Below are positions 1,674 to 5,394 of a stretch of DNA of 28,664 bases, piece by piece (position 1 is the stretch's first letter; each line of letters begins with the position of its first letter). Source of the stretch: a virus. The position numbers and the translations under genes were made by a program. The stretch is taken from IMG/VR virus record IMGVR_UViG_3300034190_002005, positions 1-28,664 of that record; one strand, 5' to 3'. A model generated the notes under the pieces. It was not told the origin of the DNA and did no database searches. It was given only the letters and a program-made list of their open reading frames with translations.

Positions 1674-3455
1674 TTAGCCATCACAACTAGCACAGGTTGG
1701 GTCCATTGCTTGTTGTGCAATATCACCTCTAAGTACCGATTCCGTTCTCATATAGTAAAGAGTTTTAACTCCCTGCTTCCAAGCTTCCATAGTTACTTGG
1801 TTAATCCACTTAGGAGTAGCCGTTGCGGGAAATGCTAAATTCAATGATACACCTTGGTCTATATATTGTTGTCTAATACCAGCTTGTCTAACTAAATCTA
1901 ATTGGTTAATTTCCTTAAATGTTTTAAATACACTCTTAATGGTAAATGATTTAACTGAATCTTCTTCTTTTAATTCAGATACCTTAACTACCTTACCATT
2001 TAAGAAACAATAATCATCCAATTCTTTAATATCCTGAATTGAACCTCCATCTGTCATAATCTTATCCCAAGTTTCTTTGTTGTTAATTCCAACTTTACGA
2101 AGTACCTTTTCCAACTCAGAATTTTTACGAATAAATGTACCTTTAGCGGTTTGTTCGGTAAAAATATTAGCAGCCCAAGGTTCGATACCAGCCGATACAT
2201 CACCACTCAATTTAGAGTTAGATACCGTTGGTGCGATTGCTCTAAGGTGAGTGTTTCTCATCCCACTATCTCTACACCATAATGGTTCACCTAACTCAAT
2301 AGCCATATCTCTACTAGCTCGTTCGGATTCAATCTTTAATTGAGAGAAAATCTTACGAGTTTCAAATTGTGCAGCCATACCTTCAAATGGGATACCATTT
2401 TGTTGTAAGTAAGTGTGCCATCCCAATACACCCAATCCTAATGCTCTACCTTTTTCAGCAGAACGGATTGAATTTTCAAAACCTTTTAAGTTTTTAGCTT
2501 TTTGGATAAACTCTTCCATTACACCATCCAAGAACCAAGTTGCGGTATATACTAAATCGGTATCTTTCCACTCATCATATTTGGATAGGTTTAATGAACT
2601 TAAACAACATACAAATGAATGTGATTCATCGGTATGTAAAGTAATTTCTGAACATATGTTTGTCATATGAACTTTTAATCCATTTTGTTTGTACATCTCT
2701 GGGTTTTGTTTGTTAACATTCCCCTTATACATAATATATGGTTCACCAGTTGCTTTACGTTTCTGAAGTAACTTACCCCATTTTCTACGAGCTTCTTCAT
2801 CTCCATTTTCTAAGTTTCTCATAAACTTATCGCCAACAATTGCTGCTTGGTGTAAGTTTAATGATTGCCTATTAACATCACCTTTAGGTTCTCTAATTTC
2901 CAACCACTCTTCAAAATCTTTGTGTTCTATATTTAGGTTTACAGATGCTGCACCTCTACGAACTGAACCCTGATTTGTTGCAAGTATAGTTGAATCGTAT
3001 ATTTTAGCGAATGGAATTACACCATCCGATGTTCCGTTGCCTGTAATCTTAGCTCCAGCAGGTCTAATTTGATTGATACCAATACCAACACCACCACCAT
3101 GCTTAGCCAATAACATTAATTCCAAATTTTTGGAACCAATATCATGTATAGAATCAGCTACATCAATTCCGAAACAAGAAATAGGTAAACCTCTATCAGT
3201 TCCAGTGTTTGAAAGAACAGGCGAAGCTAAATTTAACCAACCTTTCCATATGTAATCAAAAAACTTACTTGCCATCTGAGGTTTATTTAAACGTTGTGCA
3301 ACTTTAGTTGCTACCCTCCAATATGCATCTTTTGGTTTTTCACCTGGTAACAAATATCCCTTAGATATTGTCTTTACATATATATCGGTGTTTCCCCACT
3401 CAGGGAAATCAACACCCAATTCCCAACCTAAAACTTCTCCGTGATTTTTAGCCAT
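1674..3455 (-). CDS. nrdA: Ribonucleoside-diphosphate reductase, large (alpha) subunit
   Basis: The 593-residue catalytic subunit of a class I ribonucleotide reductase, which reduces ribonucleotides to deoxynucleotides with the NrdB subunit encoded at 4220-5215. Key residues are present: Cys94 in PISCFG and Cys283/284 in FVCCLSSLN form the redox set, NICSE (266-270) holds the active-site Cys268 and Glu270, the paired tyrosines of the radical path lie in TLYYMRTES near the end, and the protein closes with CASCDG, the C-terminal CxxC reduced by thioredoxin. It is shorter than the E. coli enzyme (about 760 residues) because the N-terminal ATP-cone is missing, so dATP feedback through that domain is probably absent. 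The start ATG at 3455 lies two bases past the end of the MazG-like gene. The gene sits in a row of nucleotide genes: NrdB, SET, MazG, NrdA, thioredoxin. Confidence 0.95.
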   Translation of the reverse strand: MAKNHGEVLGWELGVDFPEWGNTDIYVKTISKGYLLPGEKPKDAYWRVATKVAQRLNKPQMASKFFDYIWKGWLNLASPVLSNTGTDRGLPISCFGIDVADSIHDIGSKNLELMLLAKHGGGVGIGINQIRPAGAKITGNGTSDGVIPFAKIYDSTILATNQGSVRRGAASVNLNIEHKDFEEWLEIREPKGDVNRQSLNLHQAAIVGDKFMRNLENGDEEARRKWGKLLQKRKATGEPYIMYKGNVNKQNPEMYKQNGLKVHMTNICSEITLHTDESHSFVCCLSSLNLSKYDEWKDTDLVYTATWFLDGVMEEFIQKAKNLKGFENSIRSAEKGRALGLGVLGWHTYLQQNGIPFEGMAAQFETRKIFSQLKIESERASRDMAIELGEPLWCRDSGMRNTHLRAIAPTVSNSKLSGDVSAGIEPWAANIFTEQTAKGTFIRKNSELEKVLRKVGINNKETWDKIMTDGGSIQDIKELDDYCFLNGKVVKVSELKEEDSVKSFTIKSVFKTFKEINQLDLVRQAGIRQQYIDQGVSLNLAFPATATPKWINQVTMEAWKQGVKTLYYMRTESVLRGDIAQQAMDPTCASCDG

Positions 3456-3457
3456 TT

Positions 3458-3769
3458 TTATTTTTCTTCTTTAATGAATACCCCATTTATGGTTTTTCCT
3501 TGTCTATTCTTAATTTCATCCCAAGCTGCTTCCAAACATTCGGTTGGATTCAGTCCTAATTGTTTAGAAAGAATAATTAAAGTTACAAACGTATCCCCAA
3601 TACCATCCATTATTTCTGCAGTATTCTTATTCTTTGCTATTGCACCAGCCGTTTCACCTAATTCCTCCATAACTTTCATTAGTTGTTTTGGGGCGTTTTC
3701 TGGCTTCAAAATATTCTTATCGTCAGCCCATTGGGTAACGTTATCTATTAAATTATCAAATGTTATCAT
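3458..3769 (-). CDS. MazG-like nucleotide pyrophosphohydrolase
   Basis: A 103-residue all-alpha protein with the MazG/dUTPase-superfamily metal-binding pattern: EELGE (residues 35-39), then E52 and D55 in AEIMDGIGD, with D59. It is the size of single-domain phage MazG-like enzymes, which hydrolyse nucleoside triphosphates to monophosphates and pyrophosphate. Proposed roles in phages are cleaning damaged or unwanted nucleotides, supplying monophosphates, or lowering the host alarmone ppGpp; the sequence cannot separate these. The start ATG overlaps the stop of the SET gene as ATGA, and NrdA begins two bases after its stop, so the three are almost certainly co-transcribed and probably translationally coupled. 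Confidence 0.85.
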   Translation of the reverse strand: MITFDNLIDNVTQWADDKNILKPENAPKQLMKVMEELGETAGAIAKNKNTAEIMDGIGDTFVTLIILSKQLGLNPTECLEAAWDEIKNRQGKTINGVFIKEEK

Positions 3770-4176
3770 TTTAATATTGTACTTTTTAAGTTATAGGTTC
3801 CGAAAAGTTCTTCACCTTGTTTAATGGGTTTTATTACTTTCTTTGTTACAGAATCAACATTACCATCGGTTTCTTTTGTGTTAACATATGCCCAAGGATT
3901 CGATAAATTAAAGTATGAATCTTTAAACAACCTAAACCAAATAAATGGGTATTCGTTTCTATTTTCGTATGATTTTAAAATCAAAAATTTAGATGATTCA
4001 GGTAATGTATCAAATTCTTCAACTGATACAATATATGAGTTAGTTTGACCATCCCATCTGATAAAAACATCCTCACCAACATTTAGGTCTCTAAGAGCGA
4101 AAGTTCCGATTCCATGTGTTGATGAGGGTGCTATATCAGTTTTTAAATGTTCGTTTAAATATGTAAATGGTTTCAT
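3766..4176 (-). CDS. SET-domain protein (putative protein lysine methyltransferase)
   Basis: A 136-residue protein consisting of little more than a minimal SET domain. The N-terminal half has the typical opening (IAPSSTHGIGTFALRDLNVGEDVF, residues 15-38, a G-x-G-x-F-A motif followed by GE). The C-terminal half has Asn99 and Asn106 where SET proteins carry the NHS and PN elements, and then IKPIKQGEELFGTYN (115-129) with the GEEL turn and Tyr128 near the usual catalytic tyrosine. SET enzymes move a methyl group from S-adenosylmethionine to a lysine. The NHSC core is degenerate, so activity is uncertain. The size is close to the free-standing viral SET protein of chlorella virus. A Bacteroidota-type promoter ends about four bases before the ATG. 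A histone H1-like gene lies one gene upstream. The fold assignment is good; the substrate is unknown. Confidence 0.7.
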   Translation of the reverse strand: MKPFTYLNEHLKTDIAPSSTHGIGTFALRDLNVGEDVFIRWDGQTNSYIVSVEEFDTLPESSKFLILKSYENRNEYPFIWFRLFKDSYFNLSNPWAYVNTKETDGNVDSVTKKVIKPIKQGEELFGTYNLKSTILK

Positions 4177-4180
4177 ATTA

Positions 4181-4211
4181 CAAATATACGAAATTTAATT
4201 GAATTTACCAA
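4181..4211 (-). promoter_or_regulatory. Bacteroidota-type promoter P2 (SET-MazG-NrdA unit)
   Basis: Minus strand TATATTTG (4188 to 4181), 19-base spacer, TTGG (4211 to 4208). The shared extension TTTCG lies directly before the -7 element. Only TAAT separates the -7 element from the ATG of the SET gene, so the transcript would be leaderless or almost so. Confidence 0.8.
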
Positions 4212-4219
4212 GGGTTTTA

Positions 4220-5215
4220 TTAAAACATATCATCCCAATTTTCACCTTCTCCAGCTTTGGAATAGTCAGTAGGTCTTACTGCAAAGAAATCGGTATGTGT
4301 AACTCCACCCGATAGTTGATAGAACCAATCTAATCGTTCAACTGCATCTTTATCATATTCGAATATACTCTCATATCCCAACTCAACTAATTTTATATTA
4401 GTTCTAGCTTTGATAAATTCTTTCAAATCTGTTGAAGATAGGTTTTCTAATTCACCCATCTCAAACATTTTATCAATGAATTTTGATTCTAATTCTACGA
4501 TAAGTCTCGCAGCTTCTTCGATAGATTCCTTACTATCTTCTCTAAGTGTAGTAAATTCACTACACATATCTCTAAACAATTGACATCCCATCTTAGAATG
4601 TAAGGATTCATCCCTTATACTCCATTTCATTTGCTGTCCAATACCTTTCAATAGATTTCTCATTTGGAATGAGTAAAGTACTGCAAATGAAGAGTATAAA
4701 GATACTCCTTCACTAAATGCTGAGAAGATAGCAAGAGAACGTCCTACTTCTTTTCTAGCTTCAGCGTTTACTTCTAAATCGGTGTGTTTCCAATCGTTAG
4801 ATGTTGCGGTTAGGAGTTCAAACTTCTCAGCGATTGCAGGTTCATGCAAAAATGCTGAGAAGTCATCTAATCCTAATGTTTCATTTAGATATGAATATGC
4901 GGTAGCATGTATTGTTTCTTGGGAACCAAACATCATTGCCATCTGCTTTATTTCATGCTTTGGAAACCAATTGGTAACCATAGTAGTCCAATAATCAGAA
5001 ACTGCACATTCTGTTTGAGCAAATCCCAAAAGAATGTTTCCAACTAAGTTTTTTTCCTCTTTTGTAAGATGTTCATTCCAATCTTTTACATCACCCTGCA
5101 TAGGTATTTCAGTATGTAACCAAAATGCCTGTGCTTGCTTTAACCACCCTTCGGTGTAATAATCGGGATATTCAAAAGGTTTGTAAGGAACTCTTTCTTT
5201 AAATAATTTGCTCAT
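4220..5215 (-). CDS. nrdB: Ribonucleoside-diphosphate reductase, small (beta) subunit
   Basis: The 331-residue ferritin-like radical-generating subunit of class I ribonucleotide reductase. The second and third ligands are in SQETIHATAY (Glu100, His103), with a tyrosine at position 107 four residues after the histidine, where the radical tyrosine sits in NrdB. The other helix pair carries Glu169 (FSEGV), Glu203 and His206 (RDESLH). The first ligand, usually aspartate, appears to be Glu69 in AQTECAV. The C-terminal tail (GENWDDMF) is acidic and aromatic like the NrdA-docking tail of other NrdB proteins. The gene starts 8 bases after the histone-like gene, and its stop is followed by P2 before the SET gene. 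NrdA is encoded two genes downstream rather than adjacent, an arrangement with SET and MazG inserted between the subunits. Confidence 0.94.
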   Translation of the reverse strand: MSKLFKERVPYKPFEYPDYYTEGWLKQAQAFWLHTEIPMQGDVKDWNEHLTKEEKNLVGNILLGFAQTECAVSDYWTTMVTNWFPKHEIKQMAMMFGSQETIHATAYSYLNETLGLDDFSAFLHEPAIAEKFELLTATSNDWKHTDLEVNAEARKEVGRSLAIFSAFSEGVSLYSSFAVLYSFQMRNLLKGIGQQMKWSIRDESLHSKMGCQLFRDMCSEFTTLREDSKESIEEAARLIVELESKFIDKMFEMGELENLSSTDLKEFIKARTNIKLVELGYESIFEYDKDAVERLDWFYQLSGGVTHTDFFAVRPTDYSKAGEGENWDDMF

Positions 5216-5223
5216 AATTGGTT

Positions 5224-5394
5224 TTATTTAGATTCGTCTACTGAAAGTTTTCTGTAATCCGTTACCAATTTTTTGATTTCACCAATATGCTTACGAGCTC
5301 TTGATTTAGCTGCTTTGGTTGTTCCGTTGTGATTTTCTTCGAACGCTATGAATAGTTCTTGAATTTGTTCGAATACTTCTTGCGATGTTGCCAT
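5224..5394 (-). CDS. Histone H1-like protein (Bacteroidota Hc1 type)
   Basis: A 56-residue protein. It begins MATSQEVFEQIQELFIAFEE and continues with the basic stretch TKAAKSRARKHIGEIKKLV and DYRKLSVDES. The pattern of an amphipathic helix, then K-A-A-x-x-R-A-R, then a lysine-rich helix and FRK/YRK is that of the short histone H1-like (Hc1-type) proteins common in Bacteroidota. These bind DNA non-specifically and compact it. The start ATG at 5394 has an A/T-rich leader and no Shine-Dalgarno sequence. The stop (5226-5224) is 8 bases before nrdB, so the two are co-transcribed. In a phage it could compact or shield phage DNA, displace host nucleoid proteins, or be a captured host gene. The family call rests on pattern memory and the host evidence. 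Confidence 0.72.
   Translation of the reverse strand: MATSQEVFEQIQELFIAFEENHNGTTKAAKSRARKHIGEIKKLVTDYRKLSVDESK

Follow-up and report, generated by a model that had tools for sequence, protein, structure and literature searches.

SET domains are best known as the histone methyltransferases of eukaryotes. Described members outside eukaryotic genomes include vSET, the SET domain of chlorella virus PBCV-1, which methylates Lys27 of histone H3 (PMC7019647), cpnSET of Chlamydia pneumoniae, which methylates the protein Hc1, and an archaeal SET protein for which methylation of MC1-alpha, a DNA-associated protein, has been reported (both PMC10117894). SET genes have also been annotated in tailed phages, as a 'SET domain-containing protein-lysine N-methyltransferase' in Synechococcus phage Sf-CH1b, under a name taken from PBCV-1 vSET in a Podoviridae sp. 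record, and as ORF62 of Stenotrophomonas phage Ps15, which is a SET protein (PMC9025141). Hc1 proteins of family PF07432 have been published in moraphages, jumbo phages of Bacteroidota, in a paper whose main text makes no mention of a SET domain (PMC12619734).

Here, we analyzed a virus record of 28,664 bases (the window), which comes from a T4-like Bacteroidota phage with genes for ribonucleotide reductase, a DnaB-type helicase, a RecA-like protein, tail sheath and baseplate-type proteins on the minus strand; the names of the window's later genes were assigned by reading, without a search. Like C. pneumoniae, this phage encodes both a SET protein and a PF07432 protein in one genome (Table 1). 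The first-pass annotation had placed the two genes in one block, separated by nrdB alone, and proposed that they might act together as a DNA-compacting protein and a lysine methyltransferase. The ORF map agrees with this layout, and an ORF check found the coordinates given for SET, nrdB, and Hc1 to be exact.

Table 1. Features of the SET locus and of related loci (positions are those of the window unless a related locus, L, is named)
Feature	Position	Strand	Basis or remark
nrdA, ribonucleotide reductase large subunit	1674..3455	-	closes the variable nrdB-nrdA slot on the other side
MazG-like pyrophosphohydrolase	3458..3769	-	4-base overlap of its start codon with the SET stop (ATGA, 3769-3766)
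SET-fold protein, 136 aa	3766..4176	-	ORF call, Pfam, family profile, model
Promoter-like site of Bacteroidota type, TTG-20-TATATTTG	4181..4211	-	directly before the SET start codon
13-base core of the promoter-like site, TTTCGTATATTTG	4181-4193	-	recurs in the window and in relatives
nrdB, ribonucleotide reductase small subunit, 331 aa	4220..5215	-	between Hc1 and SET
Hc1 family (PF07432) protein, 56 aa	5224..5394	-	net charge +1
Guanidinoacetate-methyltransferase-like domain fused to a SET-like domain	L157:986-1969, L156:5419-6405, L159:156-1139		

Results

A SET protein by profile and fold

Taken singly, the window protein matches the Pfam SET profile (PF00856) with an E value of 7.9e-4 and 20.3 bits, just below the cut-off of 22.4. 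All 13 family members scanned match the same profile (best E 4.3e-7), and some relatives, together with one fused form, score above the cut-off, with 37 bits at locus L160. A family profile of 46 rows detects MLL-type SET structures over residues 13-130 with an E value of 6e-5; a dozen chains fall below 1e-3, and the matches up to E 0.1 are SET proteins only. Searches of PHROGs gave weak and partial matches only, and a search of NCBIfam gave no match. The dN/dS ratio of 0.13-0.18 (window versus three relatives) indicates purifying selection, and the ORF is therefore not a chance ORF. Two pattern-based scans of bacterial and archaeal genomes found no relative of the family and thus no cellular origin for it, although scans of this kind cannot prove absence.

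The AlphaFold2 model, computed from 45 sequences, has a pLDDT of 93.8 and a pTM of 0.84; an earlier model from eight near-identical sequences (pLDDT 40) was discarded in its favor. By VIA-align, the model aligns with MLL1 (Z 10.5), with vSET (PDB 3kma; Z 10.3 over 66 residues at 1.8 Å) and with SETD8 (Z about 10), and vSET is also the first and best Foldseek match. The agreement with SET structures spans about 65-80 residues, whereas the whole-length superposition in Foldseek is poor (TM about 0.4, rmsd 12-14 Å), so the halves of the model may be wrongly packed or domain-swapped, and their predicted relative packing is not to be trusted. Fold and family profile together (Z about 10; 13 of 13 relatives) uphold the SET identity proposed at first pass. 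Like vSET, the phage protein is a minimal viral SET domain; the two differ in their cofactor motif and in their hosts, which are eukaryotic for vSET and bacterial for the phage.

An altered active-site pattern shared by the clade

Profile scans yielded about 50 distinct SET-family proteins, and conservation was counted over 45 of them, among which identity falls to about 29%. Six residues are invariant in all 45 sequences: G22, G24, W41, N99, E123, and Y128. The cofactor motif XGXG is kept (H21-G22-I23-G24 in the window), with both glycines universal and the histidine present in 43 of the 45. The N-H pair of the NHSC motif, on the other hand, is not kept. Asn99 is followed by threonine in 43 sequences and by serine in two, and the window protein, which also carries N106, reads N99-T100. 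The register that equates N99-T100 with N-H rests on a cyanophage relative, which has AYYVNHSDNPNVDV where the window has WAYVNTKETDGNVDS. The active-site tyrosines are only partly kept: in the alignment to MLL3, Trp41 stands at the tyrosine of EYxG, and Gly126 and Tyr128 stand at the first and the second tyrosine of ELxYDY. The first-pass annotation was right that the NHSC core is degenerate, but this is not decay in a single sequence; since Asn-Thr/Ser is fixed in 45/45 members, it is a trait of the clade.

Compared with the SET family at large, the phage clade has in common the full-domain profile match at family level, the fold, the XGXG motif, the asparagine of NH and a tyrosine at the catalytic position. 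It differs in the replacement of the NH histidine by Thr/Ser, of the SET-N tyrosine by tryptophan and of the first ELxYxY tyrosine by glycine, and all three changes count against catalysis. In SET enzymes, the asparagine of the NH pair bonds S-adenosyl-L-methionine (SAM) via its side chain, whereas the histidine can face outward; XGXG, the tyrosine and both residues of the NH pair are lost from MLL5, a protein unable to bind SAM (PMC5094779). Because the phage clade, unlike MLL5, retains XGXG and the asparagine, by analogy SAM binding is likely and catalysis possible. PRDM7, in which serine takes the place of a conserved SET tyrosine, remains an enzyme but has lost most of its efficiency (PMC4919437); the position changed in PRDM7 would be the one occupied by Trp41 in the phage protein.

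SET proteins of cyanophages, such as the one encoded beside purM in Synechococcus phage Sf-CH1b, are 27-31% identical to the phage protein, share Trp41 and likewise come from T4-like phages. Unlike the clade described here, the protein of cyanophage SynMITS9220M01 retains N-H-S-x-x-P-N and the first tyrosine, and, unlike the window phage, the two complete cyanophage genomes checked have no Hc1. Our literature search found no paper on SET in cyanophages and no description of the Asn-Thr/Ser clade with its invariant tryptophan and its fusions.

SET is optional cargo between nrdB and nrdA

The comparison set comprised about 250 related stretches. Across loci, the gap between nrdB and nrdA is empty or holds MazG, SET and MazG, a methyltransferase, a methyltransferase and SET, SET alone, or MazG and SET. 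In another lineage, nrdB and nrdA are distant versions (NrdB 33% in L030) placed downstream, which leaves Hc1, SET, and MazG contiguous. Where nrdB precedes SET in relatives, the promoter-like site upstream of SET is conserved. Its TTG, separated by 20 bases from TATATTTG, has the form of a Bacteroidota promoter, and because this site precedes SET, the SET-mazG-nrdA segment may be transcribed apart from Hc1-nrdB. The core TTTCGTATATTTG occurs at nine sites in the window (up to two mismatches) versus 2.4 expected. Exactly or with one mismatch, it stands before several genes on the minus strand (4181, 6968, 10374, 10464, 15402, and 16401).

In sister phages, SET has as its neighbor or fusion partner a class I methyltransferase; this enzyme matches guanidinoacetate N-methyltransferase (GAMT) with an E value of 1e-13. 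It adjoins SET in L094, L133-L145 and others, is fused to it in three loci (Table 1), and occupies the nrdB-nrdA slot alone in L186, L190, L191, and L195. In L144 (5424-5996), L149, and L164, the methyltransferase lies in two overlapping frames, perhaps through a frameshift. In L126-L131, SET forms the C-terminal part of a DUF6065 protein (L126:5152-6414; DUF6065 E 1.7e-70), a domain on which we found no paper in the literature. A Mom-like gene and a JmjC_2 cupin are found close to these fusion genes. The slot of the window phage holds neither the class I methyltransferase nor DUF6065. As hints to function, the GAMT-like and DUF6065 partners are stronger than Hc1.

Some further genes lie near phage SET genes. 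The window carries a Mom-family DNA-modification gene at 16-786 (PF25680, E 5e-45), of which many relatives have two copies; Mom was considered as a partner of SET and rejected, as it also occurs in loci that lack SET and none was seen near some loci that have it. A 213.6-kb phage contig with a SET of the Asn-Thr type encodes a second, canonical SET (GGFINHSETPN; L173:1315-1668) that adjoins a putative thymidylate synthase (thyA, named by reading). Cyanophage SET genes adjoin nrdB or purM (L257, which is P-SSM7, L252, L174, and L259), a recurrent arrangement that may be due to chance.

Hc1 is a fixed core gene

The first-pass annotation had described the second protein of the proposed pair as H1-like and lysine-rich. 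The former is borne out by the match to PF07432 (E 2.3e-9; 37.4 bits against a cut-off of 23.5), whereas the latter was overstated, since the protein has seven lysines in 56 residues and a pI of 8.1, which is not a strongly basic, lysine-rich composition. Chlamydial Hc1 has a long basic tail, which is missing from the phage protein. With its small size and its net charge of +1, the phage Hc1 is a poor fit to a compacting polycation. A PF07432 match occurs in one Bacteroides control genome, and the hosts may have PF07432 proteins of their own.

A sample of 80 loci, picked by nrdB and by neither SET nor Hc1, contained 18 loci with both genes, none with SET but without Hc1, about 35 with Hc1 but without SET, and 22 with neither. 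This association (Fisher test, p 8e-4) was rejected as a sign of a SET-Hc1 pair, because a single clade underlies it on the nrdB tree (IQ-TREE, 75 loci). On this tree Hc1 changes once and SET at least eight times, with six of the SET changes forced by well-supported branches, so that the association reflects the shared ancestry of one clade, which Hc1 marks and within which SET was gained and lost independently of it. Moreover, the conserved lysines of Hc1 are equally frequent in phages with and without SET, and three Hc1 sequences occur in identical form in both groups. Outside that clade, SET was found without detectable Hc1 in a 104.9-kb contig (with SET fused to DUF6065) and in two Synechococcus phages with complete genomes, and the complete genome of Flavobacterium phage immuto has Hc1 but no SET; contigs in this comparison may be fragments, whereas the complete phages are not. 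The check across phages that the first-pass annotation had called for thus returned co-occurrence but no linked gain and loss, and the proposed dedicated pair is unsupported. Hc1 belongs to the stable core of one phage clade and SET is swappable cargo; they are not dedicated partners.

Discussion

We favor, with a probability of roughly 0.55, the reading that the window gene encodes a small, phage-type SET protein that acts as a SAM-dependent protein methyltransferase, is carried as optional cargo between nrdB and nrdA and is not the dedicated partner of Hc1. In this type of SET domain, the Asn-His cofactor motif would have become Asn-Thr/Ser and one active-site tyrosine would have become tryptophan. 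The gene is carried in the nrdB-nrdA slot, in the window lineage with a promoter-like site of its own and an overlap with mazG, and in the course of infection its product probably modifies a protein of the host or of the phage. We infer cofactor binding, catalysis and a protein substrate; the SET homology and fold, the conservation pattern, the cargo behavior, the promoter match and the gain and loss independent of Hc1 are results.

A possible, though less probable, reading is that of a dead SET-like module, with the fold kept for binding or regulation and any methylation left to the class I methyltransferase in those phages that have one next to SET or fused to it. Binding without catalysis had been the fallback of the first-pass annotation, along with a target other than Hc1. 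The histidine is lost in all members and two active-site tyrosine positions are altered, inactive divergent SET domains such as MLL5 do exist (PMC5094779), and in sister phages SET follows, or is fused to, the GAMT-like enzyme, for which there are also loci with no SET beside it in the slot. However, the cofactor glycine pair, the asparagine and one tyrosine, all lost from MLL5, are invariant over 45 sequences, and the slot of the window lineage contains no class I methyltransferase. It is unlikely, in our estimate, that SET has been re-engineered, with changed chemistry or substrate, to form with the GAMT-like enzyme a two-domain N-methyltransferase whose targets would be host proteins, amino acids or DNA-modification precursors.

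We consider it quite improbable that SET methylates the Hc1-like protein of the phage (or of the host) and thereby modulates DNA compaction. There are precedents in cpnSET with Hc1 and in the archaeal SET with MC1-alpha (PMC10117894), every SET-positive locus of the nrdB sample is also Hc1-positive, and Hc1 and SET become direct neighbors where nrdB is displaced (L030, L095-L108). Nevertheless, Hc1 stayed constant through at least eight gains or losses of SET, its lysines and some whole sequences are the same with and without SET, and both the cyanophages and the phages with the DUF6065 fusion have SET but no detectable Hc1. In contrast to C. pneumoniae, the phages show no coupling of SET and Hc1 genes, and their Hc1, at 56 residues, is nearly neutral. 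Least probable of all, and to our mind very doubtful, is an action of SET on an enzyme of nucleotide metabolism, e.g., the neighboring ribonucleotide reductase. Several unrelated phages have SET next to genes of nucleotide metabolism, with nrdB, mazG, and nrdA in the window, the order nrdA-nrdB-hypothetical-SET in P-SSM7, SET-purM in Synechococcus phages, and the canonical SET next to the thyA named by reading; but large phages often carry genes of this kind, the SET genes of some other phages (Kolga, P-RSM6) are located elsewhere, and SET persists where nrdBA is the distant version.

The locus cautions that proximity of genes is not the same as a functional pair; here, one neighbor is core and the other is cargo. 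As small proteins, the phage SETs lend themselves to asking whether a SET domain without the NH histidine still methylates. A conserved but altered type of SET domain, present in a large set of bacterial viruses, gained or lost repeatedly at one slot and fused to GAMT-like or DUF6065 proteins, suggests a use of this fold by phages that has not been studied.
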